Positions 6,948 through 37,303 of a stretch of DNA of 64,000 bases are shown one piece after another; the first letter of the stretch is position 1, and each line of letters begins with the position of its first letter. The stretch is from a virus. Under the pieces are notes generated by a model. That model made no database searches. It saw only the letters and a list, made by a program, of their open reading frames with translations, and had not been told where the DNA came from. A program made the position numbers and the translations under genes. The stretch spans positions 1-64,000 of the IMG/VR virus record IMGVR_UViG_3300032315_001604. One strand, given 5' to 3'.

Positions 6948-7889
6948 ATGAACAAAGAAATTGCTCTAAGTTATGATGATGTTTATCTTATTCCAGAATA
7001 TTCAGAGCTTGATACGAGAAAACACGCAGACACATCTTTAACTTTGGGTCAGTATAAATTCAATTTACCTGTTGTTCCTTCGAATATGAAAACGGTAATT
7101 GATGAAAAATGGTGTCGTTGGCTTTCAGATAATGATTATTTTTATATCATGCATCGATTTGATGCAATTACAGTTCCTTTTGTCAAAAGAGCAAATGAAG
7201 AAAATCATAAATATATCAGCATTAGCACTGGCGTAAATAAAGATTCTTTGGATGAATTGAATTTAATCAAAAGTGAAGGTTATAAAGTTGATTATATTAC
7301 AATTGATGTTGCTCATGGTCATCATTTAAAAGTAAAAACACGTATACAAGAAATTAGAAATTTATTTCCTGATGTTTTTATAATTGCTGGAAATGTTACA
7401 ACACCAGAAGGAATCAAAGATTTGGAATCTTGGGGAGCAGATGCTACAAGAGTTGGTATTGGACCTGGCAAGGCATGTACCACACGTTTCCAAACAGGAT
7501 TTCATGTGCCAATGTTTACAGCACTTCAAAAATGTGCAGAAGTAGCAAATACTCCTATTTTTGCAGATGGTGGTGTTCACCATTATGGTGATATTGCAAA
7601 AGCTTTGGTTGCAGGAGCAAGTTGGATTATGGCAGGTTCTCTTTTTGCTGCATGTAGCGACTCCCCTGCTATGACAGTAAATGGTAGAAAAGTATATTAT
7701 GGCTCTGCAAGTGCTTATAACAAAGGACATAATAACAATATCGAAGGAACAATTTTAGACTTGGAACCTCATTCATCTTTGGATGAAAGATTGAGAGAAA
7801 TTATGCAAGCATTACAGAGTTCAATTAGTTACTCAGGCGGTAAAAATTTAGATTCATTAAAAACTACAAAATATGTCATTACGTATTGA
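6948..7889 (+). CDS. guaC: GMP reductase
   Basis: The 313-residue protein has no CBS domains and matches the short GMP reductase of Gram-positive bacteria rather than IMP dehydrogenase. Visible motifs are IDVAHGH, IIAGNVTTPEG, the catalytic loop VGIGPGKACTTRFQTGF (Cys about residue 177), FADGGVHHYGDIAKAL and the C-terminal LQSSISYSGGKNLDSLKT. The reaction is NADPH-dependent GMP to IMP plus ammonia. With the adenylosuccinate synthetase at 29618 it forms a route from guanine to adenine nucleotides. It has its own promoter and overlaps the next gene by 17 bases. Confidence 0.88.
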   Translation: MNKEIALSYDDVYLIPEYSELDTRKHADTSLTLGQYKFNLPVVPSNMKTVIDEKWCRWLSDNDYFYIMHRFDAITVPFVKRANEENHKYISISTGVNKDSLDELNLIKSEGYKVDYITIDVAHGHHLKVKTRIQEIRNLFPDVFIIAGNVTTPEGIKDLESWGADATRVGIGPGKACTTRFQTGFHVPMFTALQKCAEVANTPIFADGGVHHYGDIAKALVAGASWIMAGSLFAACSDSPAMTVNGRKVYYGSASAYNKGHNNNIEGTILDLEPHSSLDERLREIMQALQSSISYSGGKNLDSLKTTKYVITY

Positions 7890-9882: not shown

Positions 9883-11028
9883 ATGCCCTATACCTTTAAT
9901 CCGTTTACTGGTGGATTAGATGGAGCAGGTGCAGGTGGGCTTGCAGATGCTCCTTCTGATGGAGTTCTTCGTGCTCGAAAGAACGGATCTTGGTCTACTA
10001 TTGATGCAGCAGATATTCCCAGCTTACCTGCTAATGGTCTTGATATGACTTTAATAGAAGCAACAGATGGCTTGTATGGATACATAGGAGATATAGGAGT
10101 TAATCAGTTTGTTGGGGATACCTCTTTAACGGGTTTGTATCTGGGAAATAGTGTTACAAGTATTGGAAATCAGGCTTTTTATGAGTGCTCTGGTCTTATT
10201 GGTTCTTTAACTATACCAAATAGTGTTACTAGTATTGGTAGTCTGGCTTTTCAAAGTTGCTCTGGTTTTACTGGTTCTTTAACTATTCCAAATAGTGTTA
10301 CAAGTATTGGTAGTAGTGCTTTCTATAATTGCTCTGGTTTTACAGGCTCCTTAACTATCCCTAATAGTGTTACTAGTATTGGTAGTCTGGCTTTTTATGA
10401 TTGCAGTGGTTTCACAGGTTCTTTGACTATAGGAACTAGTGTTTCAAGTATTAATGATGGTGCTTTTGAAAGTTGCAATGGGTTTACAGGCTCCCTCACC
10501 ATTCCGGGAACAGCTTCAATCGGAAGCTTTGCGTTTTATGCTTGCAGCTTTAATGGCTTAAATGTAACTGGAACTTCTATAAATTCTAATGCTTTTGAAT
10601 ATAATAAAACAAATGCTTTTGGATCATTGAATATTGCTAATACCATTACAAGTATTGGAAATCAGGCTTTTTATGAGTGCTCTGGTCTTATTGGTTCTTT
10701 AACTATACCAAATAGCATTACAAGTATTGGTAGTTATGCTTTTGATAGTTGCTCTGGTTTTACTGGTTCTTTAACTATACCAAATAGCATTACAAGTATC
10801 GGAGGTAGTGCTTTTAGAAATTGCTTTAACTTAACAAATGCTTATTTGAATCAGCCCTTGTCTGCAATAGGTTCCAATGCTTTTCAAAATTCAGGTCTTA
10901 CCACAATTCACCTTCAACCATCCCCCAACACTCCTGCGGGTTGGACCATAGGTTCTGGGCAAACAATACGTGGTAAATCTGGAATTACCGTGGTAGCAAA
11001 TTGGACAACCCATCCTAATCCTCCGTAA
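9883..11028 (+). CDS. BspA-type leucine-rich-repeat tail fibre protein 1
   Basis: The 381-residue protein begins MPYTFNPFTGGLD, a short opening also found at 11037 and 13564 and probably the virion attachment end. About residues 80-335 are BspA-type (LRR_5) repeats with unit IPNSVTSIGSxAFxxCSGFTGSLT, about 23 residues long. The C-terminal cap contains NAYLNQPLSAIGSNAF and PSPNTPAGWTIGSGQTIRG. LRR_5 proteins bind glycans or proteins at surfaces, so a receptor-binding role is likely. Nearly identical DNA units invite recombination. Confidence 0.85.
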   Translation: MPYTFNPFTGGLDGAGAGGLADAPSDGVLRARKNGSWSTIDAADIPSLPANGLDMTLIEATDGLYGYIGDIGVNQFVGDTSLTGLYLGNSVTSIGNQAFYECSGLIGSLTIPNSVTSIGSLAFQSCSGFTGSLTIPNSVTSIGSSAFYNCSGFTGSLTIPNSVTSIGSLAFYDCSGFTGSLTIGTSVSSINDGAFESCNGFTGSLTIPGTASIGSFAFYACSFNGLNVTGTSINSNAFEYNKTNAFGSLNIANTITSIGNQAFYECSGLIGSLTIPNSITSIGSYAFDSCSGFTGSLTIPNSITSIGGSAFRNCFNLTNAYLNQPLSAIGSNAFQNSGLTTIHLQPSPNTPAGWTIGSGQTIRGKSGITVVANWTTHPNPP

Positions 11029-11031
11029 ATA
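11026..11031 (+). promoter_or_regulatory. Late-type promoter box
   Basis: TAAATA overlaps the stop of the previous gene and lies 5 bases before ATG 11037. Confidence 0.5.
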
Positions 11032-11036
11032 ATATT

Positions 11037-12260
11037 ATGCCATACAAATTTAATCCATTTACAGGTAGTTTAGATACAGCAGGTTCAGGAGGTATTCCAG
11101 AAGCTCCTGCTGATGGCAATCTCTATGACAGAAAGAGTGGTCAATGGGTTCAACCTGAAGCATCAGATGTTACAGACTTTCCTACAAATTTTGCAGACCA
11201 TACTTTTATTACCACTAATGATGATCCCAGTAAAGTTATCATGACTTATGGAAGTATTGGTAGTAGTGCTTATAATTATAGAACAGATTTAACAGGTCTT
11301 TATTTAGGAAGCTCTGTAACAAGTATTGGAAGTAATGCTTTTCAAGGTTGCGGTGGTTTTACTGGTTCTTTAACCATACCAAATAGTGTTACAAGTATTG
11401 GTAGTGATGCTTTTAGAAGTTGCTCTGGATTTACTGGTTCTTTAACCATAGGAAGCGGTGTTACAAGTATTGGTAGTTCTGCTTTTTATCAAACTAGTTT
11501 AACAGGATCTTTAACCATTCCCAATAATGTTACAAGTATTGGAAGTTATGCATTTTATCAAAATGAAGGTTTTACAGGTACATTGACTTTATCAAATAGC
11601 CTGACAAGTATTCAACAGTCAACTTTTAAGAGTTCTAGTTTTACAGGCTCTTTGACTATACCTAATAGTGTAACAAGTATTAATGATGGTGCTTTCTATA
11701 GTTGCACTGGCTTTACTGGTTCTTTAACTATTCCAAATAGCGTTACAAATATTGGTAATCAGGCTTTTGCTTATTGCACTGGCTTTACTGATTCTTTAAC
11801 TCTTGGTAATACCATTACAAGTATTGGAAGTCAGGCTTTTTATGAGTGCGACTTTTCAGGTTCTCTAATTATTCCGAATAGTGTTACAACTATTGGAAGT
11901 CAGGCTTTTTATGACTGCAACTTTTCAGGTTCTCTAATTATTCCGAATAGTGTTACAACTATTGGGAGTTATGCTTTTGCTTATTGCTACGGTATTGGAA
12001 GTTCTCTAACTATTCCAAATAGTGCTACGAGTATTGGTGATCGTGCTTTTCTTGCATGTGAAAGCGTAATAGATGCTTATTTGAATCAGCCTCTGTCTGC
12101 ATTTAATAATACTTTTCAAGCCTCAAATCTTACTACAGTTCACCTCAGACCATCTCCTAATACTCCTGCGGGTTGGACTATAGGTTCAGAGCAAACAATA
12201 GTCGGGCAAGACGATGTTAATGTAGTGGCAGATTGGACAACATATCCAAATCCCCCTTGA
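11037..12260 (+). CDS. BspA-type leucine-rich-repeat tail fibre protein 2
   Basis: The 407-residue paralogue of 9883 shares the MPYKFNPFTGSLD opening and the PSPNTPAGWTIGSEQTI cap. LRR_5 units run from about residue 85 to 360, with two adjacent near-duplicate units (SGSLIIPNSVTTIGSQAFYD type) that suggest recent expansion. Variable positions fall at fixed points of each unit, which fits a variable binding face on a conserved solenoid. It probably forms or decorates a tail fibre. Confidence 0.85.
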   Translation: MPYKFNPFTGSLDTAGSGGIPEAPADGNLYDRKSGQWVQPEASDVTDFPTNFADHTFITTNDDPSKVIMTYGSIGSSAYNYRTDLTGLYLGSSVTSIGSNAFQGCGGFTGSLTIPNSVTSIGSDAFRSCSGFTGSLTIGSGVTSIGSSAFYQTSLTGSLTIPNNVTSIGSYAFYQNEGFTGTLTLSNSLTSIQQSTFKSSSFTGSLTIPNSVTSINDGAFYSCTGFTGSLTIPNSVTNIGNQAFAYCTGFTDSLTLGNTITSIGSQAFYECDFSGSLIIPNSVTTIGSQAFYDCNFSGSLIIPNSVTTIGSYAFAYCYGIGSSLTIPNSATSIGDRAFLACESVIDAYLNQPLSAFNNTFQASNLTTVHLRPSPNTPAGWTIGSEQTIVGQDDVNVVADWTTYPNPP

Positions 12261-12290
12261 TTTATTTCTCCCAAGATATAAAATAATAAT

Positions 12291-13088
12291 ATGTCTAAAA
12301 CAGTTCATTTTGTATCAGGTCTTCCAAGAGCCACTAGCACTCTTCTCTGCAACCTATTAGCACAGAACCCAAGAGTTCATGCAACAGCAACATCCCCTTT
12401 GCATGAGATTGGTTATATTGCAAGGAAAGTATTTCAAACTGAAGAAGCAAAAGCGATTGGTGGTGATGTGCTTGAGACTATGTTTAAGGATTATGTCAAA
12501 GGTGGGGTCGAAAATGCTTTTAATTCATTGACAGATAGACCTGTTGTAGCCGATAAATGCAGATCATATATTGGTCACTTGGATATGATCTTTCAAATCT
12601 TTCCTGATGCTAAAGTTCTTGTTCCAGTAAGAGATGTAAGAGGCATTCTTTGCTCCATGGAAAAAATCAGAAGAAAGCATCCAGCACCTTTTAATGGCTT
12701 CGAAGAACAAAATCCAGCTAACTTTACTACAATTGAAAAAAGAGCGCAGGGATGGCTTCAACATCCACCTGTTGGCATTGCTATTGAAAGATTGTTTGAA
12801 GCAACAGCAAGATTTAAAGACAAGCTTCACTTTGTTCATTCAGAAGACTTAACATCAAACCCTAAAGAAACTATGCAAAAGGTTTGGGAATATCTTGAAG
12901 AAGATTTCGATAAACATGACTTTAATAATGTAGAACAATATACTAAAGAAGTAGAAGTGGGTTGGCCTTATGGTGATCATTCTATTAGACCTCAAATTAA
13001 ACCATTACCTATGGATTATGATAAGATTCTTGGAAAACAGCTATCAGATGCTATAAAGCAGAAGTTTGCTTGGATAAATAATTTATAA
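12291..13088 (+). CDS. Sulfotransferase family protein
   Basis: The 265-residue protein opens MSKTVHFVSGLPRATSTLLC, a PAPS-binding 5'-phosphosulfate loop, and has KVLVPVRDVRGILCSM, the 3'-phosphate-binding segment. Both are hallmarks of PAPS-dependent sulfotransferases. It sits between fibre genes and overlaps the next start (TAATG), so sulfation of fibre proteins or of a host surface glycan is a reasonable inference, not shown. It is full length for a minimal sulfotransferase domain. Confidence 0.85.
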   Translation: MSKTVHFVSGLPRATSTLLCNLLAQNPRVHATATSPLHEIGYIARKVFQTEEAKAIGGDVLETMFKDYVKGGVENAFNSLTDRPVVADKCRSYIGHLDMIFQIFPDAKVLVPVRDVRGILCSMEKIRRKHPAPFNGFEEQNPANFTTIEKRAQGWLQHPPVGIAIERLFEATARFKDKLHFVHSEDLTSNPKETMQKVWEYLEEDFDKHDFNNVEQYTKEVEVGWPYGDHSIRPQIKPLPMDYDKILGKQLSDAIKQKFAWINNL

Positions 13089-13555
13089 TGAAATACGCAA
13101 TATTAGGACCAAGAAAAGCAGTTAATAGAATCTCTGATACAGAACCACAAACATTATCAAGTTTAAGTGCTACTGTTGTAGAGTTTACAGATGAACAAGC
13201 ACATACTGTATTAGCAGGTTTATCAGCAACACCATCAACTCGTTATTTTTATCTCAGCGGAAATTTAATTACATTTAAAGATAAGTTTGAACAAGATAGA
13301 TCAACTCCTACATTAACCCAAGAACAGACCATCAAAAGAGGTGAAATGTTTGTTCAGAATAAAGGATTTTCAGCACAGAGGCTTGTTACATTAATGGACA
13401 AGTTGATTCAAGTTAAAGAAGCTAATGCTTTAGCTTCAAACCCAAAGCTTGTTGCTGTATATCAATGGCTCCAAGAAGTAAAAGCGAAAGCGATTGCTAC
13501 GCAAATTAATTTTTCAGAACCACCTTATACATTCGAAGAAGTCATAACCGAATAA
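13088..13555 (+). CDS. Fibre-cluster protein, possible assembly chaperone
   Basis: The 155-residue protein (MKYAILGPRKAVNRISDTEP...) has a beta-rich first half and a helical second half (QRLVTLMDKLIQVKEANALA). Proteins of this size placed beside fibres often act in fibre assembly, but I do not recognise a defined family. It overlaps the sulfotransferase stop by one base, so the two are co-translated. Confidence 0.6.
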   Translation: MKYAILGPRKAVNRISDTEPQTLSSLSATVVEFTDEQAHTVLAGLSATPSTRYFYLSGNLITFKDKFEQDRSTPTLTQEQTIKRGEMFVQNKGFSAQRLVTLMDKLIQVKEANALASNPKLVAVYQWLQEVKAKAIATQINFSEPPYTFEEVITE

Positions 13556-13563
13556 GTATTTAC

Positions 13564-15342
13564 ATGGCCTATTCCTTCAATCCGTTTACAGGTAGTTTAG
13601 ATGATTCTGGAGGAACATCTGGTATTGTAGATGCACCTTCTGATGGAGGCTTGTATGGTCGGGGAACTTTTGATACTAGTGGAGTCTCCTTACTGCTTCA
13701 CATGGATGGATCATCTGGATCTCAAAACTTCATTGACAGTTCTTTAAATAATTTCACAGTAACTAATAATGGAGGTGCTCAAATTGATACAGCATTCAAG
13801 AAGTTTGGAACAGGTTCTAGTTATTTTAATTATGGTGACAGTACATATTTGCAAACTGAGTCTTCTTCGGAATTTGGTTTGGGTACTGGGAATTTTACTG
13901 TTGAAATGTGGCTATACAAAGATACTGCAATATTAAACTTTAATGGGTTTTTTTGCATAAATCAGTACAATAATAATGGTATTTTAATTAGAATACAGTC
14001 AGCTTTTGATTCTCTTTATGTTGGTGGAGAAACTTATAATTGGGATCCTAGCACCAACTTTCCATTAAATCAATGGAATCATTTTGCCCTAGTAAGAAAT
14101 AATGGAGTAATAAAAATTTATATTAATGGCATTGCAGTTTTTACTGCAAATAATAATAATAACAATTTAGGATCTACAGGCATAGTCACTGTTGGTGCAA
14201 GTTCTCACAATTATAATGAAGGGTTTGGTGGTTATATTGATGAAGTAAGAGTTGCCAAAGGTGTTGCAAGATACATGGCAAACTTTGATGTGCCTACTGT
14301 GCCTTTTTCTAATCCTGCATATCCTGCTCCAAGTTGGAGTAATCACACCAAGGAAGACATACTCAACAATGAATCTGGTCCTCCTTTAACTCTCCTTATC
14401 AATTCTGATAATACTATTACAGGGGTTTATGGAAGTATTGGTTATCAGGCATATACTGGCCAAGATCAATTGTTAGGATTACAAATAGGTACAAGTGTTA
14501 TAACTGTTGGTAGTGGAGCCTTTGAGTATTGCTCTGGTCTTACTGGCTCTTTAACTATACCAAATAGTGTTACAGATATTGGTAATGGAGCTTTTGGTGG
14601 TTGCACTGGTTTTACAGGTTCTTTAACAATACCAAATAGTGTTACAAATATTGGTAGTTTTGCTTTTTATCAATGCTCTGGTTTTACAGGTTCTTTAACT
14701 ATTCCTAATTCTGTTACGAGTATTGGTAATAATGCTTTTAGAAATTGCAACGGATTTACAAATTCTTTAGCCATACCAAATAGTGTTACAAGTATTGGTA
14801 GTGATGCTTTTATAGATTGCTCTGGTTTTACAGGCTCCTTAACTATCCCTAATAGTGTTACTAGTATTGGTAGTCTGGCTTTTGAAAATTGTACTGGCCT
14901 AACAAACGCTTATTTAAATCAGCCACTATCTGCGGTTGGATCTAATGCTTTCATTAGTTCAGGACTCACTACAATTCACCTTCAACCATCCCCCAACACT
15001 CCTGCGGGTTGGACCATAGGTTCTGGGCAAACAATACGTGGTAAATCTGGAATTACTGTAGTAGCTGATTGGACTGAATATCCAGTTGGTACTTGCAATG
15101 ATGCAACTGCACAAGTTCTTATGACAGGTTGGGTTTATGGAGATAGAACATTATCCCCAATTGGATATTTTCCGTTTGGAGGAGAAACCTATGTTTATGG
15201 GGATGAAGTTGTAAGATATGTAGATGGTGTTTGGATCTATGAAAACAGTGGATTAGAAATAACAAGGGCTTATGGTTATGTGGGACGCCCTTGGCTGGCT
15301 ACTTGGGATTCTCCTTTTACATCAAGTAAAATATGTCCATAA
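13564..15342 (+). CDS. Tail fibre protein with LamG-like domain and LRR repeats
   Basis: The 592-residue protein begins MAYSFNPFTGSLDDSGG. Residues about 36-225 form a concanavalin/LamG-type jelly roll (SLLLHMDGSSGSQNF, GTGNFTVEMWLY, GYIDEVRVAKGVARY). Residues about 285-450 are LRR_5 repeats, and the PSPNTPAGWTIGSGQTIRG cap follows, here extended by about 90 residues. The DNA of the cap (14960-15075) is almost identical to 10888-11005 in fibre 1, evidence of gene conversion or recent duplication. Two carbohydrate-binding-type domains in one protein support a receptor-binding role. Confidence 0.85.
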   Translation: MAYSFNPFTGSLDDSGGTSGIVDAPSDGGLYGRGTFDTSGVSLLLHMDGSSGSQNFIDSSLNNFTVTNNGGAQIDTAFKKFGTGSSYFNYGDSTYLQTESSSEFGLGTGNFTVEMWLYKDTAILNFNGFFCINQYNNNGILIRIQSAFDSLYVGGETYNWDPSTNFPLNQWNHFALVRNNGVIKIYINGIAVFTANNNNNNLGSTGIVTVGASSHNYNEGFGGYIDEVRVAKGVARYMANFDVPTVPFSNPAYPAPSWSNHTKEDILNNESGPPLTLLINSDNTITGVYGSIGYQAYTGQDQLLGLQIGTSVITVGSGAFEYCSGLTGSLTIPNSVTDIGNGAFGGCTGFTGSLTIPNSVTNIGSFAFYQCSGFTGSLTIPNSVTSIGNNAFRNCNGFTNSLAIPNSVTSIGSDAFIDCSGFTGSLTIPNSVTSIGSLAFENCTGLTNAYLNQPLSAVGSNAFISSGLTTIHLQPSPNTPAGWTIGSGQTIRGKSGITVVADWTEYPVGTCNDATAQVLMTGWVYGDRTLSPIGYFPFGGETYVYGDEVVRYVDGVWIYENSGLEITRAYGYVGRPWLATWDSPFTSSKICP

Positions 15343-16451: not shown

Positions 16452-16908
16452 TGGTGGAGGTGTCGGAGTGCTGCCCTCCGAGTCTTTATAATCTACATTT
16501 ATATGTCTACATGTTTTAGTATCTTTAGCATTTCAGTCACCATACGGTAACGAAGACTTTAGGCTGCTTGGTGACACTAACCGAATTTTTAGTCTGCCTA
16601 TAGATATTAACGCAATCTATATACGGATAGTATTTTGTTTATTATGTCAGAATTACTAACAACCCGACACCCTCTGCTATCAATGAACTCTTAGAGGATC
16701 TAAGTTCAAGGTCTTTAGGCTGCTAAGAGCATTTCGTCTTCAGCACCTACGAGATACTCGTCGGCGTTGTTGAAGATATGTTCAGCTTCAGCTAAGATGG
16801 AGTCAGTATTATCTGCTCTTAATTTTTAATCGATTTTTTACGAGGCCATCGATTAACCTCGACATGCGATACAAATTTCAATTATAAATCGAAATCTAAT
16901 TCACCCCC
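16452..16908 (-). ncRNA. ssrA: tmRNA with unusually long tag
   Basis: Read on the minus strand, the RNA starts GGGGGTGAATTAG and ends CACCTCCACCA. The 7-bp acceptor stem includes G3-U70, the alanine identity pair. Pseudoknot 1 is clear (CGAGG...CCTCG with AATCGAT...ATCGATT) and carries the tmRNA-typical GGCCTCGTAAAAA. The tag frame starts at GCA (16816) and ends TAA (16717-16715). It encodes 33 residues beginning ADNTDSILAEAE and ending GAEDEMLLAA, the usual degradation tail. E. coli uses a tag of about 10. The T-loop (GGCAGCA) lacks the normal TTC. It rescues stalled ribosomes with SmpB, which is presumably host-supplied. Confidence 0.93.
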
Positions 16909-21049: not shown

Positions 21050-21274
21050 ATGATTAATGTAGAAGTAAAAATATTCAAAAAAGGAGATCAGAAATTAGCT
21101 TTAGATAAAGCACTCCAAAGACTAAAAACAAAATTAACCAATGAAGGTGTAATGGATACAGTAAGAGCAAAAAGAGCTTTTGAAACACCCAAGGAAAAAA
21201 GAGAAAGAAAATTAAGAAACAGACTTAAATTAATTAAAAGTAAAAAATCCTTTGACAGAAAGAAAGATCTTTGA
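21050..21274 (+). CDS. rpsU: Ribosomal protein bS21
   Basis: The 74-residue protein matches bS21 throughout. A short N-terminal strand (INVEVKIFKKGDQ) is followed by LALDKALQRLKTKLTNEGVM and the arginine-rich ending RAFETPKEKRERKLRNRL. bS21 binds the 30S platform near the anti-Shine-Dalgarno sequence and affects initiation. Phage copies are known from marine and huge phages and may replace the host protein. This copy has its own promoter with essentially no leader and lies among tRNAs, pointing to a role in redirecting host ribosomes. Confidence 0.93.
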   Translation: MINVEVKIFKKGDQKLALDKALQRLKTKLTNEGVMDTVRAKRAFETPKEKRERKLRNRLKLIKSKKSFDRKKDL

Positions 21275-21275
21275 T

Positions 21276-21500
21276 AAAGTATTAATACGATTCGGTAGCA
21301 GTCTATATCCGAATCAGAATAAGGGATCTTGCCTGTTAGTGTGTTGGTGAACTTATTCGCTGGATGAGTTAAGCTGCATAAAACTTTGACTCCATGCATT
21401 GATTAACACAGGCTTTGACGTAGATTATTCTGCGAACTCGCGGAGGCTTCGTTAAGGAAAGGACAATTTCTAGAGTAAAACCTTTCAAAAACTAAATTTA
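21276..21500 (+). ncRNA. Probable structured non-coding RNA
   Basis: The stretch holds no credible gene but many paired segments: GATTCGG/CCGAATC (21289-21295, 21309-21315), GAATAAG/CTTATTC (21317-21323, 21352-21358), GCCTGT/ACAGGC (21331-21336, 21408-21413) and GAAAGG/CCTTTC near 21467-21486. The GCCTGT pairing overlaps the second hairpin, so a pseudoknot is possible. It runs directly into tRNA-Ser. I do not recognise the class. Confidence 0.55.
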
Positions 21501-26046: not shown

Positions 26047-26229
26047 ATGATAACAAAACTAGTAGCATTAATCGCAGTAGTTGCCTCATCTATCGGATTG
26101 AGTGTGGCAACTCTTATCTATGGGTGGGGATTAGAACCGAAAAGCTGGACAGCAATTATAATTTTCGGTATATTTGGTCAAGTTGTTGTAAGCAGTCTTT
26201 ATAGAAAAATCATGGAAGATGGCAAATGA
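26047..26229 (+). CDS. Two-pass small membrane protein
   Basis: The 60-residue product has hydrophobic segments at about 3-24 and 33-52. ATG 26047 follows the previous stop by 4 bases; the in-frame start at 26002 would overlap the previous gene. A holin-like topology is possible, with no other support. Confidence 0.65.
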   Translation: MITKLVALIAVVASSIGLSVATLIYGWGLEPKSWTAIIIFGIFGQVVVSSLYRKIMEDGK

Positions 26230-26456
26230 AATACAGAATTAAAGAAGAAACAAAGATGGGTAAACATTACTTTTACCCTCAATATAAAAAATTCCTATTC
26301 TGGAAGAATATGACTGAACGTGATGTTAAGGATGTAGTTGTATACCCTCACCTAAAAGGAGCTAGAGATCATATTGAAATCTTTGAAGAGAGACTAAACA
26401 AGAAAAAGAAGCTTGATAGTTACAAACAAGTATTGTATCATTCCTATATATCATAG
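26226..26456 (+). CDS. Small basic protein of unknown function
   Basis: The 76-residue product contains KHYFYPQYKKFLFWKNMTER and a lysine-rich helix. The HYFYPQ.KK.LFW pattern is seen in short phage proteins of unknown role. It overlaps the previous gene by 4 bases. Confidence 0.65.
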   Translation: MKYRIKEETKMGKHYFYPQYKKFLFWKNMTERDVKDVVVYPHLKGARDHIEIFEERLNKKKKLDSYKQVLYHSYIS

Positions 26457-26717
26457 ATGAAATATAAATTTGTAGAAACTCAAGGTTGCACGGCATTTGG
26501 CTTCACTGTCAATGATGAAGACCTTGCTAATATTTCCAAAGAGAAACAAAAAGAAATTATTGATTATCTTTGTGAAAAAATGAAAGAAGAAATTGATAAA
26601 GGAACTGTTTTGTTTTCAGATATTGTTGGAGTTTTTCAAGAAACGGATCATGGTTCTGAAAAAGAACCTTGCGATCAATGCTATGATACTGTAAGTTGGA
26701 CTATATGGGAGATTTAA
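26457..26717 (+). CDS. Small acidic protein
   Basis: The 86-residue protein (MKYKFVETQGCTAFGFTVND...) has a possible CxxC near the end (PCDQCYD). It starts immediately after the previous stop. The function is unknown. Confidence 0.65.
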   Translation: MKYKFVETQGCTAFGFTVNDEDLANISKEKQKEIIDYLCEKMKEEIDKGTVLFSDIVGVFQETDHGSEKEPCDQCYDTVSWTIWEI

Positions 26718-26719
26718 AT

Positions 26720-27256
26720 ATGAATACAAATGAATATGTAAAAATATTGGAAGAAGAGTGTGGCAAAAATCAAACACACAAGAAAAAGCATATTAAAAAA
26801 AGCACAGGTATAAATGCGCTTTACATAACAGAAAAACCAGATTATAGTTGGACGATTAAAGATCGTTTGAAACTTACTTTTATTATTCTTAAAAACCGTT
26901 GGATGTTTTTGAAAAACTACAACCCTCTGGATTTTAGATCTTATGAAGAAGAATATAACCCATATGGGTTTGATAAGATCTATACTAAATTTCACAGAAC
27001 ATCAACTCCATTAACTCGTTTTAAAAATTTTTGGGGTGAATTTGAAACTACTTTAAAAAATATTAAAGATGGTTTTTTATATACCCCACTCGCTGTTAAA
27101 CACTATCAAAAAAATAAAGAAAGAATATCTTGGTTTGAAGAAAACCTTTCAAGAATGTTTGCCGATAAGTTAGATGTTGATGTTAGAAAAGAATTAGATA
27201 AACATGGATATGATCTTGACGGACAAGGTAGAATTTGTTATAAAGTAAAGGAATGA
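26720..27256 (+). CDS. Conserved phage protein of unknown function
   Basis: The 178-residue aromatic- and lysine-rich protein contains KDRLKLTFIILKNRWMFLKN and FRSYEEEYNPYGFDKIYTKF. It is probably a soluble helical protein. ATG 26720 is preferred to 26696, which overlaps the previous gene. A similarly built protein occurs at 42955 (both have W..K.RL/KL.F, then F/YYDKI-like segments). Confidence 0.65.
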   Translation: MNTNEYVKILEEECGKNQTHKKKHIKKSTGINALYITEKPDYSWTIKDRLKLTFIILKNRWMFLKNYNPLDFRSYEEEYNPYGFDKIYTKFHRTSTPLTRFKNFWGEFETTLKNIKDGFLYTPLAVKHYQKNKERISWFEENLSRMFADKLDVDVRKELDKHGYDLDGQGRICYKVKE

Positions 27257-27420
27257 AAATTGTAATTCTATCTTTACTTTTAACTGGATGCACAACGCTT
27301 ACAGATAAAATGGTAAAACCTGCCATTACTGAAGATAACTATTGGAAAACTCCTTGTATTTGGGATGGAACTATTTTAAAAAAACCTTGGCTTAAAAAAA
27401 ATGAAAGTTCGAATCAATAA
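27253..27420 (+). CDS. Small lipoprotein
   Basis: The 55-residue product opens MKIVILSLLLTGCTTL, a short lipoprotein signal with the lipobox LLTGC, so the mature part should be lipid-anchored. A spanin-type (Rz1) role is conceivable, but the mature part is not proline-rich and no partner is clear. It overlaps the next gene by 20 bases. Confidence 0.7.
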   Translation: MKIVILSLLLTGCTTLTDKMVKPAITEDNYWKTPCIWDGTILKKPWLKKNESSNQ

Positions 27421-27802
27421 CATTGGTGCAGAGCCTGTAACGTATATTGGCAAAAGATTTGAAGAGCCAATATATGAATGCTCTATTGTAAAGTATTATT
27501 TTAATAGGTATTATGGAATGCTGGAACAATACCTGAAAGATGGCTGGGTAGATAATGGCGATTGTCTTACTTATAAGAATGCTTCTATTAGTAAGAGTTG
27601 CTTTTTGGGTAAAGAAACAAATTATGTTATAGCATTTCTTAAATACAACAAAGATGGTGGCTATACAGAACTTGAATCGGTTTGTGATAGATTGCTTTAC
27701 ATCGAAGAGGATGAGAAAAAAGATTTCTTTGAAGTTTATAAAATTGCTGATAGGATGATAATAGAGAAGGTTGACAAAGATGAAAAACAAAATTCAAATT
27801 GA
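27401..27802 (+). CDS. Protein of unknown function
   Basis: The 133-residue mixed protein contains GKETNYVIAFLKYNKDGGYT and an acidic C-terminal region. No family is recognised. It overlaps both neighbours by about 20 bases, typical of a compact operon. Confidence 0.65.
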   Translation: MKVRINNIGAEPVTYIGKRFEEPIYECSIVKYYFNRYYGMLEQYLKDGWVDNGDCLTYKNASISKSCFLGKETNYVIAFLKYNKDGGYTELESVCDRLLYIEEDEKKDFFEVYKIADRMIIEKVDKDEKQNSN

Positions 27803-27932
27803 AAAACAAATAAAAACAGCCAAATCTATTTTAAAAGATATAGAATTAAGCTATAAGAATAAAGATGGAAGATATGGTGTTTATGCATATTCCGTCCAAC
27901 ATGAAGAATTGAAAAGGTTGGAAAATTTATGA
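27780..27932 (+). CDS. Small helical protein
   Basis: A 50-residue frame (MKNKIQIEKQIKTAKSILKD...) ends in ATGA overlap with the next gene. The sequence suggests two helices. It directly precedes the bL12-like gene. Confidence 0.6.
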   Translation: MKNKIQIEKQIKTAKSILKDIELSYKNKDGRYGVYAYSVQHEELKRLENL

Positions 27933-28054
27933 GTGATAAATTAGAAAAAATCATGGAAGAGATTGGTAAATTGACAATTACCGAACTTAACGAACTTATT
28001 AAAAGTTTAGAACCTATCTTTACACCAAAAGAAGAAAATACATTGACTGATTAA
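27929..28054 (+). CDS. bL12 N-terminal-domain-only protein
   Basis: The 41-residue product has residues 4-31 (KLEKIMEEIGKLT ... ITELNELIKSLEPIF) matching the N-terminal dimerisation domain of ribosomal protein bL12, whose usual form is LxxIxxLTxxExxELxxxLExxFG. The C-terminal domain of normal bL12 (about 70 residues, recruits elongation factors) is absent. The hinge is reduced to a short acidic tail. Such a protein could bind uL10 or host bL12 and alter the stalk. The short length limits certainty. Confidence 0.7.
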   Translation: MSDKLEKIMEEIGKLTITELNELIKSLEPIFTPKEENTLTD

Positions 28055-28099
28055 ATATATCTGGTAAATTAGATATAGTTCTTTGAAAAATTTAAAAAA

Positions 28100-28679
28100 G
28101 TTTAGTGCTGGATAGTCGGACCAGCACTAAAAATCCTGATGCGAAACCCATCAGGTCAGAGATAGGTTTAACCAATTAACAACTCTGCAATAAATGGATT
28201 GGTTTATAAAAAGGTATGCAACTCTACCTCTCTATATAACGGATACGTGTCCGTGTTCTGATCAGACATATAGAGTCCCATAGTGGATAGCTTGGAAGCG
28301 AAAAAAAAGAGTGTAGGTTCTGGGTAAACCAAAGCTATATAGGCTAAAACTCTTGTCCCGAAAGGGGTAAAGGTTCTGTGTTCTTCTGTTGTTGGCTTAT
28401 TGCCAACCAGAAGCCAGCAGTTTAAGGCGCAACTTAAACATCAGTCTGGTCCTGTTTGCGACAAAAACACCAATTTTAAGCCGAGAATCCTAACGAGATT
28501 CTAGTCAGAACCCACTGATGAGATGAAGCTGGTCGTTCCAGTAATAAGGGGGATGGTTGCCATGACCCGCATACGGTGTGCGTAAGTTGACTCGTCTGAA
28601 AAGATAGGGAGTCCGTGCTTGATTCCAGAAGGAAAAATCCGAAAGGAAAATGATGGTATGTAAAGACAGCCGAATTTTT
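28100..28679 (+). ncRNA. Large ornate structured RNA (ROOL/GOLLD-like)
   Basis: About 580 non-coding bases contain many perfect hairpins. Examples are TTAGTGCTGG/CCAGCACTAA (28102-28111, 28121-28130), CCTGATG/CATCAGG (28135-28141, 28149-28155), ACGGA/TCCGT near 28240, CCCGAAAGGG near 28357, GTTGGC/GCCAAC near 28391 and AGAATC/GATTCT near 28485-28501. CAGAG/CTCTG and AACCAAT/ATTGGTT interlock as a pseudoknot (28157-28204). Size, complexity and direct abutment on tRNA-Asn match the phage-borne giant RNA classes ROOL and GOLLD. The exact class is not proven. Confidence 0.75.
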
Positions 28680-29111: not shown

Positions 29112-29625
29112 TAGTAGAAATGATCTGTTTAGTCTTTTAAATGGATCCGAAAATATTGGAATAGAATTAGGAGTAGCAAAGGGAAGATACTCAAAAACAA
29201 TGGTTGATTCTGGAAAGTTTTCCAAAGTATACGGAGTAGATCGTTATACGGATCATCACGATTCAAAAGAATATATATCAGCAATATCTTATATTGGTTT
29301 AGATAAACCTTATGTATTAATTCGTTCTACTTTTGATGAGGCATTAACTTTGTTTGAAGATGGATATTTTGATTTTATATATGTCGATGGTTATGCTCAC
29401 ACTGGACAAGAAGAAGGAAAAACTTTGTATTCTTGGTATAGAAAACTAAAAAAGAATGGCGTTTTTGCTGGTCATGATTATCATGAAAAATGGCATTTGA
29501 CTAAAAAATCAGTAGATGATTTTGTTGCTGAAAACAATTTAACTTTAAACATAACTTCCGAAGAAAACGATGAAAAAAACTGTTTGTATCCATCGTGGTA
29601 TGTGCTAAAGTATTTTTATGATTAA
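29104..29625 (+). CDS. Class I SAM-dependent methyltransferase
   Basis: The 173-residue protein has a SAM motif IGIELGVAKGRYSKTMV, VYGVDRYTD, and the strand-4 FDFIYVDGYAHTGQ. It ends with GVFAGHDYHE, a pattern of the Methyltransf_24 type. The substrate is unknown. ATG 29104 avoids the long overlap implied by a start at 29053. It is translationally coupled to the synthetase gene that follows. Confidence 0.8.
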   Translation: MINSRNDLFSLLNGSENIGIELGVAKGRYSKTMVDSGKFSKVYGVDRYTDHHDSKEYISAISYIGLDKPYVLIRSTFDEALTLFEDGYFDFIYVDGYAHTGQEEGKTLYSWYRKLKKNGVFAGHDYHEKWHLTKKSVDDFVAENNLTLNITSEENDEKNCLYPSWYVLKYFYD

Positions 29626-30631
29626 ACACGTTGATGTTATCGTCGGTCTTGCTTGGGGGGATGAAGGCAAGGGTAAAATCTCAAGTGCAATGGCGAAAGA
29701 CTATGATATGGTCTGTCGTTGGAATGGTGGACCAAATGCTGGTCATACTGTTTATTTGGATGGTAAAAAATATAAAACTCATCTGATTCCTTCTGGTGTT
29801 TTTCATGGAAAGAAATCTGTTATTGGTCCAAACTGTGTTTTGAATATCGATAAATTTCTCAAAGAAATTGAATATTTAAAACAAAATGGTTTTGATACAT
29901 CTTTGGTCAAAGTTCATCCAAATGTTCATGTGATTACAGATGCACACATTGAATATGATTTAAAACATTTGAAACCCAAACTTGGAACTACTGGTCAAGG
30001 TATTGCTCCTTGCTATGCAGATAAAGCAAATCGTGTTGGTATTCAAATTAGAAATATGAGTTTTGCTCCTTTGAAAGATTTTATTTGGGATGGAAAATTA
30101 GAAGGAAAAATTCTTTGTGAAGGTGCTCAAAGTATCTGGTTGGATATCAATTATGGCGATTATCCTTATGTTACAAGTTCTGAAACATTTCCTCACAATG
30201 CTTGTTCGCTAGGATTTTCTCCCAAGAAAATTCGTGACATTATCGGCGTGGCAAAAATTTACGATACCAAAAGTGGTGTCGATCCTCTGTTTCCAGAATG
30301 TCTTTGGAATGATGCAAGACTCAATCAACTAATTGAACTTGGGGGAGAGTTTGGATCTACGACAGGTAGAAAGCGAATTGTAAATTGGTTAAACTTTGGA
30401 AGATTAAACAATGCTATTAATCTTTCAGGTTCAACCAAAGTAATCATCAATAAATGTGATGTGTTTGAAAAGGTTGGAATCTTCAGAATCAATAATTTTC
30501 ATGAAACATCTTTGGAAACAAATTCTTTTGATCAACTAAAAGATATCATTAAGAAGTCTTTGGTAAATCAAAACATCAACGGATTAAAGCCAAACAATAT
30601 TATTTTCTCTGGTGATCAGACGCATATTTAA
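29618..30631 (+). CDS. purA: Adenylosuccinate synthetase family protein (PurA/PurZ)
   Basis: The 337-residue protein is shorter than bacterial PurA (about 430) and near the length of archaeal PurA and phage PurZ. Visible motifs are WGDEGKGK (catalytic Asp15), GPNAGHT (His43), LGTTGQGIAPCYADK, EGAQSIWLDINYGDYPYVTS, STTGRKR (aspartate loop) and NKCDVF (GTP base recognition). The Asp is kept, whereas classical PurZ is reported to replace it. The reaction is therefore most likely IMP + Asp + GTP to adenylosuccinate; use of dGMP, as in the PurZ0 type, is not excluded. It pairs functionally with GMP reductase at 6948. Confidence 0.88.
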   Translation: MIKHVDVIVGLAWGDEGKGKISSAMAKDYDMVCRWNGGPNAGHTVYLDGKKYKTHLIPSGVFHGKKSVIGPNCVLNIDKFLKEIEYLKQNGFDTSLVKVHPNVHVITDAHIEYDLKHLKPKLGTTGQGIAPCYADKANRVGIQIRNMSFAPLKDFIWDGKLEGKILCEGAQSIWLDINYGDYPYVTSSETFPHNACSLGFSPKKIRDIIGVAKIYDTKSGVDPLFPECLWNDARLNQLIELGGEFGSTTGRKRIVNWLNFGRLNNAINLSGSTKVIINKCDVFEKVGIFRINNFHETSLETNSFDQLKDIIKKSLVNQNINGLKPNNIIFSGDQTHI

Positions 30632-33567: not shown

Positions 33568-35442
33568 ATGGCAATTATCAATGCAGCAAACAATGGAAAT
33601 TGGTCAAATAGTAATACTTGGCCAAGCGGAATATTTCCTACCGTTTTAGACGATGTATATGCAAACAATCGAACAATTTACATTGATCAAAATATATCAG
33701 TATATAGTCTCAATACTACAGCGGGTACTGGAGGAACGGCTGGTGGTAGGTTTTATGCAAATCAAGGTGATAGAATTATAAATGCAAATATAATTCAAGC
33801 AGGGACTACATATTGTGTCACAGTAACAGGAACAGGTACTAGAACAATTTCCTCACAATTCATAGAAGGATCTGACACTACAAATACTACTGCTGCTATT
33901 TTAATACAAGGGACATCTACAGCATTACCAAATGTTGTTACTTATGGGAGCGCAGTTGGTGGTTTGGCATCAGGCGGTGGTGCTACTAGTACACCATCAG
34001 CAATAACAATTGAAGGTGGTATTTTAACTCATTATGGGTTTGTTTCTGGTGGAGGTGGACAAGCAACTACAAGAAGTACTGGTATTAAAATATACCAAGC
34101 AGCAAGCAGTACAATACCAGTTTCGGCTATTATATATGGAAATGTTAAAGGTGGTACAAATCCAATATGTACTGGTATAACCTGTGAGTTTTCTCCTGCT
34201 GCTACGACACTTTCAAGTTGTTTGATTTCGATATATGGAAACCTTTCAGGTGGAGATAGTTTATTAACCGCAACAACAAATAATGCAGGTTTATATACCA
34301 ACACAACAATCCATACAGAAGTTTCAGGAAACATACACGGAGGATCTGGTTTTTCTTATACAAATGGTGGTATTGTTGGATTTGCTACAACAACCCTTGA
34401 TGTTAATATTGTTGGAAATGTTTATAATCATAATAGTTTTGGTTTTTGTCCAGGAATATCTTATTCAAGCACTTCGGGTAATATTAATATAACTGGAGAT
34501 GTTGTTTGTCTTGATTCATTTGGTGGCGTTCCTGCTACAAATAGTATTAATAGCTATGCAATTTATCAAAATGGTGGTACAGCTTTAAATATTCTTGGTA
34601 ATGTTTATGGTTGTCGAGGTCTTGTAGGTTTTGCTAATGGTGGAATTTATTTAGATTCAACTAATGTTACAAGTATAACAGGGAATGTTTATGGAGGAAA
34701 TACTGGTAACTCTTATGGGATTTATGTTGCGGACAGTCCGAATATAGTTAACATATATGGTAATGTTTATGGGAATACTGTAGGTAGAGGGGTTGGTGGT
34801 CATGGCATATATATTAATTCGGGAACAGCAAGAGTAAACATTTATGGATCTGCTATAGGTTCAGAAAATGACAATACATCTTGGGGAGTAAGAAATAACA
34901 GTACTGGTGTAGTATATGCCAAAAGAGTTGTAGCTAATTCATTTGGCGTGGGATCGGGAGGAGTGTCCGACAACCCAAATTATGGTGTTGGGAGTGATAG
35001 CATTAGTGGTAGAAATCTTGTTGAAGAGTTGGTTTTTGGACCAAGAGGACAAATACCTGTTTTTGGTCCTACTTATATTGTTAAAGAAACTACCAATAGT
35101 GCAACAATACAAACGTTTGATGTTACAAAATCAAACTTTTATCAAGAAAAAAAATTAGTAGATGATACAATAATCAATACATTTTTACCAAAAGTTTCGG
35201 ATGTAAGGTCAAATGTTGTTTATGATTCTTTAACAGGAACTATGATTGTTCCTGCTCCATCTTCGGTTAATTTTGAAATACCTGTAGACAATACACAAGG
35301 TACAGCATACCTAACACCAAACATTTTATGGAATACCCAAACAACAGAATTAACGAGTCTTTCGACAGTTATTGGTTACAGAATGAATAATATTGCAACA
35401 GTTGAAACGGTTGGAAATACGTTAGCATCTTATAATATATAA
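33568..35442 (+). CDS. Large beta-helix-like fibre/adhesin 1
   Basis: The 624-residue protein opens MAIINAANNGNWSNSNTWPS, then GIFPTVLDDVYANNRTIYID, resembling the start of G8-type or polymorphic repeat adhesins. The body is rich in Gly, Thr, Asn and short repeats (NIYGNVYGN, ITGNVYGGNTGN) that suggest a right-handed beta-helix. The C-terminal part (about 545-624) ends with TTELTSLSTVIGYRMNNIAT. It is probably a tail spike or fibre. It is followed by a paralogue two bases later. Confidence 0.78.
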   Translation: MAIINAANNGNWSNSNTWPSGIFPTVLDDVYANNRTIYIDQNISVYSLNTTAGTGGTAGGRFYANQGDRIINANIIQAGTTYCVTVTGTGTRTISSQFIEGSDTTNTTAAILIQGTSTALPNVVTYGSAVGGLASGGGATSTPSAITIEGGILTHYGFVSGGGGQATTRSTGIKIYQAASSTIPVSAIIYGNVKGGTNPICTGITCEFSPAATTLSSCLISIYGNLSGGDSLLTATTNNAGLYTNTTIHTEVSGNIHGGSGFSYTNGGIVGFATTTLDVNIVGNVYNHNSFGFCPGISYSSTSGNINITGDVVCLDSFGGVPATNSINSYAIYQNGGTALNILGNVYGCRGLVGFANGGIYLDSTNVTSITGNVYGGNTGNSYGIYVADSPNIVNIYGNVYGNTVGRGVGGHGIYINSGTARVNIYGSAIGSENDNTSWGVRNNSTGVVYAKRVVANSFGVGSGGVSDNPNYGVGSDSISGRNLVEELVFGPRGQIPVFGPTYIVKETTNSATIQTFDVTKSNFYQEKKLVDDTIINTFLPKVSDVRSNVVYDSLTGTMIVPAPSSVNFEIPVDNTQGTAYLTPNILWNTQTTELTSLSTVIGYRMNNIATVETVGNTLASYNI

Positions 35443-35443
35443 T

Positions 35444-37303
35444 ATGGCAATTATCAATGCAGCAAACAATGGAAATTGGTCAAATAGTAATACTTGGCCA
35501 AGCGGAATATTTCCTACTTCTAATGATGATGTTTATGCTAATACCAGAACTGTTTATATTGATCAAAATATAAATGTCAATAGTCTCAATACTACAGCAG
35601 GTACTGGCGGAACGGCTGGTGGTTTATTTTATAATACAGGCTCAATTTCTATAACAGCAGGTACAATTATGCCAGGAACAACAAACGTATTAACGTTAAC
35701 TGGAAATAATAATATTAATATTCAAAGTAGTTTAATTTCTGGTTCTTACACAACCACCAACACATGGGGTATAATTATGATAGGAGCTTCTCCCGCACCA
35801 ACCGTAACAATTAACAGCTATATTTCAGGGGGTAGTTTTGCGGGTACAACTGGAGGTATTAGACAAGAAGCGGGAAATTTAAACGTATCGGGAACTATAG
35901 TTGGAGGATCCGCAAACTCTACATGTCCCGCTATATACATTATCAATGTAGGAAACTATCCAGTTGTTTTTAATGGTGTTGGTAGTGTTGTAGGAAGTAG
36001 ACGTATACAGCTTGGAGCGGGGATCAACATCACATACGTAGGACAAGAATTTTCAAATAAAAACAGTTCTTTTACATTTACTGGTATTGTGTCTGGTTCT
36101 CCTCTAATTTCAGATCAAAACAACCAAACATCGGCTGCTATGCGTATTAATACAACAATACCTGTGTTTATAAATGGGGATGTTATAGGCGGTTCTGGTG
36201 GATTTTCTACATTCGGTGGTACTATTCAAAATTCAGGTCAAGCTGCTGTTTATATTGAAGGTAATTCGGTTGTAACTTTGAGTGGTAATGTTTATTCGGG
36301 AGTTGCTAATTTATCAGGAAGTTCTTTTGAATCTATTTATGTTCGAGGTCCATCACCCACTCTCAACATTATTGGAAATATTGTCAACGTAGAAACTTTA
36401 GGTACTGGAAATGGTTGTTTGGATTTTGGTAGTACAACGGGTTTTTTTAATCTTACTGGTAATATTATTTCAAGTTCTGGTACAAGAAATGTAGCAAGAG
36501 TTGTTGGAGTTGGTAATACAAATACTTTTACTATGTACGGAAATATTAGTGCAAATCGAAGTATAGGATTGACTATGGCAAATAATAGCACAGTAAATAT
36601 ATATGGTGATGTTTATGCGGGTAATACATCAGGTAGTGGTGGCACTGGATCAGCGGGTATAGTTATATCATCAGGTGCAAGAGGAAAACTTAATGTATAT
36701 GGTACGGTAAATTCAGGAAATGCCAACTTTTCACATGGAATTGGTTATGGTAGTAGTGTAGTAACCTCAATTTATGCTAAAAAATTAAAAGGTGGTGTAT
36801 ATGGTATTGGATCTGGTACAGGTACACCTTTGACATATGCAATTGGAGCGACACAAAACGTTGTTTCGTTGCCAACGATGAATATTGTATGCGAAGAATT
36901 AGAATTTGGAAGATATGGAGCACCACCAGTTTTATTAAATGTTTGTTTTGCTGATAAATCTTTTAATACTATTACTATGCCAGTTACAAGTACAACCGCA
37001 GAAATAAAAACATTAGTCGATCCCAATTTTAATAATATCATGCCATCGGTTTCTGATGTTCGTTTAGAAACAATTTATAGTGCAGGTAACTTAATAGGAA
37101 CTTGCAATATACCACCAATTGAAAATGTTGAATTTAAAGTACCAGTTGACAATAGCTATGGAATAGCCGCACTAACACCCCAATCGATTTGGAACACAAC
37201 TACTACACAATTAACTTCTTTATCGACAAGTATTGGTTATAGACTTAATAATGCTGCAACAGTTGAATCGGTGGGTCAGCAGGTAGCAGCATTTGGTGCA
37301 TAA
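35444..37303 (+). CDS. Large beta-helix-like fibre/adhesin 2
   Basis: The 619-residue paralogue of 33568 has a first ~75 bases identical to it, and the C-terminal domain (TTQLTSLSTSIGYRLNNAAT) is alike, while the middle has diverged. This is a tandem duplication with conserved attachment and cap regions and a variable middle. A late-type box is contained in the short junction. Receptor specificity or a two-fibre assembly is the likely purpose. Confidence 0.78.
   Translation: MAIINAANNGNWSNSNTWPSGIFPTSNDDVYANTRTVYIDQNINVNSLNTTAGTGGTAGGLFYNTGSISITAGTIMPGTTNVLTLTGNNNINIQSSLISGSYTTTNTWGIIMIGASPAPTVTINSYISGGSFAGTTGGIRQEAGNLNVSGTIVGGSANSTCPAIYIINVGNYPVVFNGVGSVVGSRRIQLGAGINITYVGQEFSNKNSSFTFTGIVSGSPLISDQNNQTSAAMRINTTIPVFINGDVIGGSGGFSTFGGTIQNSGQAAVYIEGNSVVTLSGNVYSGVANLSGSSFESIYVRGPSPTLNIIGNIVNVETLGTGNGCLDFGSTTGFFNLTGNIISSSGTRNVARVVGVGNTNTFTMYGNISANRSIGLTMANNSTVNIYGDVYAGNTSGSGGTGSAGIVISSGARGKLNVYGTVNSGNANFSHGIGYGSSVVTSIYAKKLKGGVYGIGSGTGTPLTYAIGATQNVVSLPTMNIVCEELEFGRYGAPPVLLNVCFADKSFNTITMPVTSTTAEIKTLVDPNFNNIMPSVSDVRLETIYSAGNLIGTCNIPPIENVEFKVPVDNSYGIAALTPQSIWNTTTTQLTSLSTSIGYRLNNAATVESVGQQVAAFGA

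Follow-up and report, generated by a model that had tools for sequence, protein, structure and literature searches.

A gene of 41 codons in a virus genome encodes a peptide that, by sequence and predicted fold, is a member of the L12_N domain family, i.e., the N-terminal domain (NTD) of ribosomal protein bL12, without the C-terminal domain (CTD) that follows it in the cellular protein. The gene lies in the window, a stretch of 64,000 nucleotides (positions 1 to 64,000) of the 195,163-base IMG/VR virus record IMGVR_UViG_3300032315_001604. Its parts are as follows.

27929..28054, + strand: bL12 N-domain-only gene, 41 codons, product MSDKLEKIMEEIGKLTITELNELIKSLEPIFTPKEENTLTD; recognised as an open reading frame (ORF), by its PF16320 match, by conservation in viral contigs and by purifying selection.
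27938..28021, + strand: codons 4-31, putative bL12 dimerisation and uL10-anchor helical hairpin; placed by PF16320, PDB, AlphaFold2 and Foldseek.
28016..28051, + strand: codons 30-41, phage-specific end of helix 2 (I-F-T-P versus cellular K-F-G-V) and variable tail, neither hinge nor CTD; placed by alignments and the lack of a PF00542 match.
27929..27932, + strand: ATGA overlap between the start codon of the gene and the stop of the preceding 53-aa ORF (27771-27932).

The gene closes a series of small ORFs that overlap or abut one another (26226-28054). Its start overlaps its own upstream ORF by 4-11 nt in the window and in related phages, and this overlap suggests that it is translationally coupled to that ORF.

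The assignment to bL12 is supported by several lines of evidence. In a Pfam search, residues 4-28 of the peptide matched PF16320 (Ribosomal_L12_N) with E 6.8e-6 and 26.1 bits, the curated cut-off being 25 bits, and no other family was better than E 0.16. The match spans positions 1-25 of the 48 in the profile, the hinge part being absent. When the whole 195-kb record was scanned in six frames, the peptide was the sole match (E 6.3e-6, 24.2 bits, just below the cut-off); six related records exceed the cut-off, and all six phage copies match the family, the best with E 8.6e-7. The top PDB matches are the L7/L12 N-domains of Thermotoga maritima (residues 5-31), at E 0.0036 for the single sequence and E 2.8e-5 with a profile of six phage members; the alignment is gap-free, with 14 of 27 residues identical (52%). 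A hidden Markov model built from the T. maritima and E. coli NTDs alone gave the peptide 21.7 bits, whereas 20,000 shuffled versions of it reached at most 11.1 bits and the next-best of 1285 open frames of the window 6.0 bits; a chance or low-complexity helix was rejected on these two backgrounds. The hydrophobic positions of the hairpin (L5, I8, M9, I12, L15, I17, L20, L23, I24, L27, and F31) are all hydrophobic in T. maritima too. AlphaFold2 predicts for the monomer two helices, 3-13 and 17-31, with block means of the predicted local distance difference test of 87-92 over the first 30 residues. The model was superposed by Foldseek on the L12-NTD bound to L10 (1zav_U) over 27 columns with a root mean square deviation of 0.6 A and 52% identity; for so short a peptide the Foldseek E-value (5.2) carries no information, and the superposition therefore counts as supporting evidence only. 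The alignment behind the model contained cellular bL12 NTDs, and the tests of fold and homology are therefore not fully independent. The sequence-only reading of this DNA had seen the pattern of the bL12 dimerisation domain at residues 4-31, and both the profile signal and the predicted L12 helical hairpin agree with it.

That reading had also noted the missing factor-binding domain, and the peptide is indeed not a complete bL12. Neither the ORF nor the rest of the 195-kb record nor any of ten related viral records has a match to PF00542, the bL12 CTD, while the same search found it in 10 of 14 control genomes; as viral records may be incomplete, the absence of a CTD gene is strong, not absolute. 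The alternative that the CTD is encoded elsewhere was thus rejected for the record and its ten relatives. The model of complete bL12 (TIGR00855) gives 17.9 bits on the peptide against a cut-off of 84.4, and no phage-encoded uL10 partner was found. A lone anchor is not the ordinary state of the domain in the bacterial phylum sampled, since each of the 149 PF16320 matches, found in 148 of its 151 genomes, falls within an open frame of 126 codons or more. For the phage matches, the open frames are 43-58 codons long.

The gene is present in seven further viral contigs, eight records in all. In an annotated collection of 50,697 phage records, tblastn of the peptide gave insignificant matches only (E at least 4). 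A PHROGs search gave nothing significant, and a scan of viral contigs with a broadened alignment led back to the same clade alone. A whole-bL12 query of the annotated collection gave matches that cover most of bL12; several of those records resemble bacterial contigs filed as phage. A 9-residue match in L002/G004 was dismissed as chance, being antisense within other sequence. Across the copies, a core of 33 residues is nearly invariant (MSxKLxxIMEEIxKLTITELNELIKSLEPIFTP), whereas the tails after it vary (KEENTLTD, KEEKNEP, ENKTDEHGNN, and EDKKDESSNQ), which indicates that selection acts on the hairpin itself. Comparison of the window copy with the others in these 33 codons gave 6-10 synonymous and 3-5 non-synonymous differences, i.e., proportions per site of 0.33-0.55 (pS) and 0.04-0.06 (pN), with pN/pS of ~0.1. 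No changes were counted in the core codons of the remaining pairs of copies, or three where L016 is in the pair.

The surroundings of the gene differ among the records. In the window it stands between the 53-aa ORF upstream and a non-coding element downstream, whereas the gene directly after it in L006/L007 is the homologue of ORF 27401. A small lipoprotein-like ORF precedes it in L014 and L017/L020, where the downstream genes differ, and in L016 it is flanked by yet other genes. The conservation, together with the gene context, indicates that the gene is functional and probably ribosome-directed. The record also carries a tail sheath gene whose product is, over part of its length, 34-40% identical to those of T4-like myophages, among them phages of Prochlorococcus and Synechococcus. 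This homology, the purifying selection and the viral nature of the record place the peptide in the broad class of phage-encoded ribosomal proteins, as a selected homologue of a ribosomal domain in a phage genome.

What such a peptide might do is suggested by the role of the domain in bacteria. The bL12 NTD dimerises and anchors bL12 on the C-terminal region of uL10, with several dimers per ribosome, and the CTD recruits IF2, EF-Tu, EF-G, and RF3 (PMC4592705; PMC12548414). Ribosome fractions of E. coli were found to contain phage-encoded bL12 and bS21 (PMC6375957). The phage of this record evidently targets the translation machinery, as the window holds 13 transfer RNA (tRNA) genes and two further translation genes.

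21050..21274, + strand: bS21 gene, 74 aa, a second ribosomal protein; PF01165 at 21101-21226, E 6.2e-11.
16452-16908, - strand: transfer-messenger RNA (tmRNA), without SmpB; found also in L059, L060, L061, and L062, thus in five of five large related records.

The bS21 gene is present in four of those five (this phage and three relatives). Given the role of the bL12 NTD and the presence of bS21, tmRNA and the tRNAs, we consider occupancy of the stalk, by docking on uL10 and/or pairing with host bL12 so that CTDs become fewer or reshaped, the most likely action, with a probability of about 0.5. It is proposed that the gene yields a free-standing NTD, folding as the bL12 hairpin, which would pair with itself or with host bL12 and fill the bL12-binding segments of the C-terminal helix of host uL10. 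The occupied positions would then bear no CTD or only one, leaving fewer stalk arms for IF2, EF-Tu, EF-G, and RF3, and the phage would tune or dampen translation on the remodelled host ribosomes. Dimerisation and binding to the uL10 helix would follow from homology, and the outcome could be inhibition, a selective effect (on trans-translation, for instance) or protection. A narrower form of the proposal, a dedicated dominant-negative or stalk-retuning bL12, in which an anchor-only mini-protein fills uL10 sites and sets the number of factor-recruiting arms during infection, is held more tentatively.

Several points weigh against stalk occupancy. The helix end E-P-I-F-T-P, kept in all phage copies, departs from E-[DE]-K-[FW]-G-V, which leads into the hinge in all ten cellular comparators, and this departure could alter or abolish docking. 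Cellular bL12 reaches 20-40 uM in E. coli (PMC12548414), and competing with so abundant a protein would require high expression of the peptide or an advantage in affinity. The gene is accessory, being absent from the related phages G001 (211 kb) and G006. Finally, we infer that the peptide is expressed, dimerises and docks on uL10, as well as the direction in which it acts.

The same conserved E-P-I-F-T-P end could be read in favour of exaptation off the ribosome, in which the bL12-derived hairpin would serve as a dimerisation module with a non-stalk phage or host protein, or would regulate the pools of free uL10 and bL12; conservation as strong as this is compatible with any partner. However, the core pattern is still 52-58% identical to cellular NTDs and bS21 in the same phage points to the ribosome, so this explanation appears somewhat unlikely. 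Another possibility keeps the docking on uL10 but supposes that it alters stalk geometry and hits one process, e.g., trans-translation with the phage tmRNA, or another stalk-dependent GTPase or stress response, while bulk translation is spared. Such selective action is conceivable since a compound that binds the bL12 NTD blocks trans-translation only (PMC12548414), and tmRNA without SmpB is found in the phage and four relatives. The tmRNA is, however, also present in G001 and G006, which lack the peptide, and the two are therefore not tied; we regard this as unlikely.

It is also conceivable that the peptide is a decoy or anti-defence protein, a mimic of the bL12 anchor that soaks up or displaces a host defence factor or toxin acting on the stalk. 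The gene is small, accessory and exchanged between sets of small variable genes in a phage tRNA region, as is typical of host takeover or counter-defence genes. Nevertheless, toxins directed at the stalk attach, to our knowledge, to the C-terminal portion of its proteins, and the peptide lacks this portion, which makes a decoy quite improbable. That the peptide is non-functional, either a chance helical hairpin or a decaying remnant of a captured bL12 gene, would accord with its shortness and a single-sequence score barely above the Pfam cut-off, but is hardly tenable in view of the purifying selection and of the occurrence in eight records in different contexts, besides the shuffle and background controls; a decay remnant in particular was ruled out by pN/pS and by the exchange of tails around a retained core.

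Stalk occupancy by an anchor-only bL12 can be compared with several known systems. Cellular bL12 (L7/L12) has in its NTD (PF16320, 1zav, 1dd3) the same hairpin, length from the start codon and hydrophobic pattern; the phage peptide differs in lacking the hinge and CTD and in being encoded outside any ribosomal operon. The phage bL12s described by Mizuno et al. (2019) are CTD (Ribosomal_L12) proteins, alone or within larger polypeptides (PMC6375957), and huge phages encode L7/L12 (PMC7162821); in a 735-kb phage, we found a match to whole bL12 along its length. These are likewise parts of bL12 encoded by tailed phages, but they are CTD or whole-protein forms, in contrast to the NTD alone. The nearest analogue of an anchor without its effector is the bL9 N-domain protein of Mycobacterium phage 32HC, in which the anchor is kept and the cellular CTD is replaced by an unrelated C-terminal sequence (PMC6375957). 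It concerns another protein and site (bL9 binds 23S rRNA), and in the present case just a few variable residues follow the anchor. Phage bS21, an exchangeable ribosomal protein of aquatic myophages (PMC6375957; PMC9723584), is a whole protein of the small subunit connected with initiation, whereas the peptide is a domain only. In the open-access papers that were searched, we found no report of an N-domain-only bL12 and no description of viral translation control by an anchor-only bL12 filling uL10 sites. The anchor-only bL12 is thus a new variant among phage-encoded ribosomal proteins. While the known ones resemble replacements of host parts, it resembles a competitor for the one multi-copy protein site of the ribosome. 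If docking is true, it would offer a natural 33-residue tool to titrate stalk occupancy, make the purpose of several bL12 dimers per ribosome testable in infection, and identify the contact between bL12 and uL10 as a target of phages; a small-molecule binding site in the bL12 NTD is already known (PMC12548414).

Among 84,980 species genomes, scanned with short peptide patterns, the nearest cellular N-domains are those of full-length bL12s from Zambryskibacteria (58% identity over 31 aa) and Anaerolineae; given this kind of scan, they are the nearest found, and the donor may be another. A host among the Bacteroidota is no more than a guess, based on the little Shine-Dalgarno signal and the A-rich upstreams at gene starts, and on myoviruses encoding bS21, which were mostly assigned Bacteroidia hosts (PMC9976891).

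Directly downstream of the peptide gene, a further feature was recognised.

28060-28675, + strand: non-coding element of ~600 nt, between the peptide gene and tRNA-Asn.

Conserved copies occur in related phages (L006:3145-3885, L023:5567-6206 on the - strand, L048:5181-5763, L049, L050, and part of L022), with exchangeable side helices and a G+C content of 0.41-0.45 versus ~0.30 in the surroundings. RNAalifold gave 173 pairs, 13 with compensatory changes, on four sequences only. There was no match to it in Rfam or in the 50,697 phage records. The motif GTTCTTTGAAAA near its start resembles the boxA of Bacteroidetes rRNA leaders. The element may be a large ornate phage RNA, comparable to GOLLD or ROOL but so far unclassified. 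In two of the records, L006 and L017, the element lies apart from the peptide gene.

The tag encoded by the tmRNA is unusually long, conserved and acidic (ADNTDSILAEAEHIFNNADEYLVGAEDEMLLAA, 33 aa here and 34-35 aa in relatives). Between bS21 and tRNA-Ser (21275-21500, + strand) lies a hairpin-like sequence with no obvious gene, starting with TCCTTTGACAG, perhaps a further structured RNA. Several long paralogous proteins are encoded at 9883-15342 and 33568-37303 (+ strand), some with repeated SLTIPNSVTSIG units that by eye look like BspA-like leucine-rich repeats, and one pair has the common start MAIINAANNGNWSNSNTWPSGIFPT; they are likely adhesion or tail-associated proteins. Also by eye, a PurA-like adenylosuccinate synthetase and a protein similar to IMP dehydrogenase or GMP reductase were noticed at 29618-30631 and 6948-7889 (+ strand), respectively, which suggests manipulation of the purine nucleotide pool.
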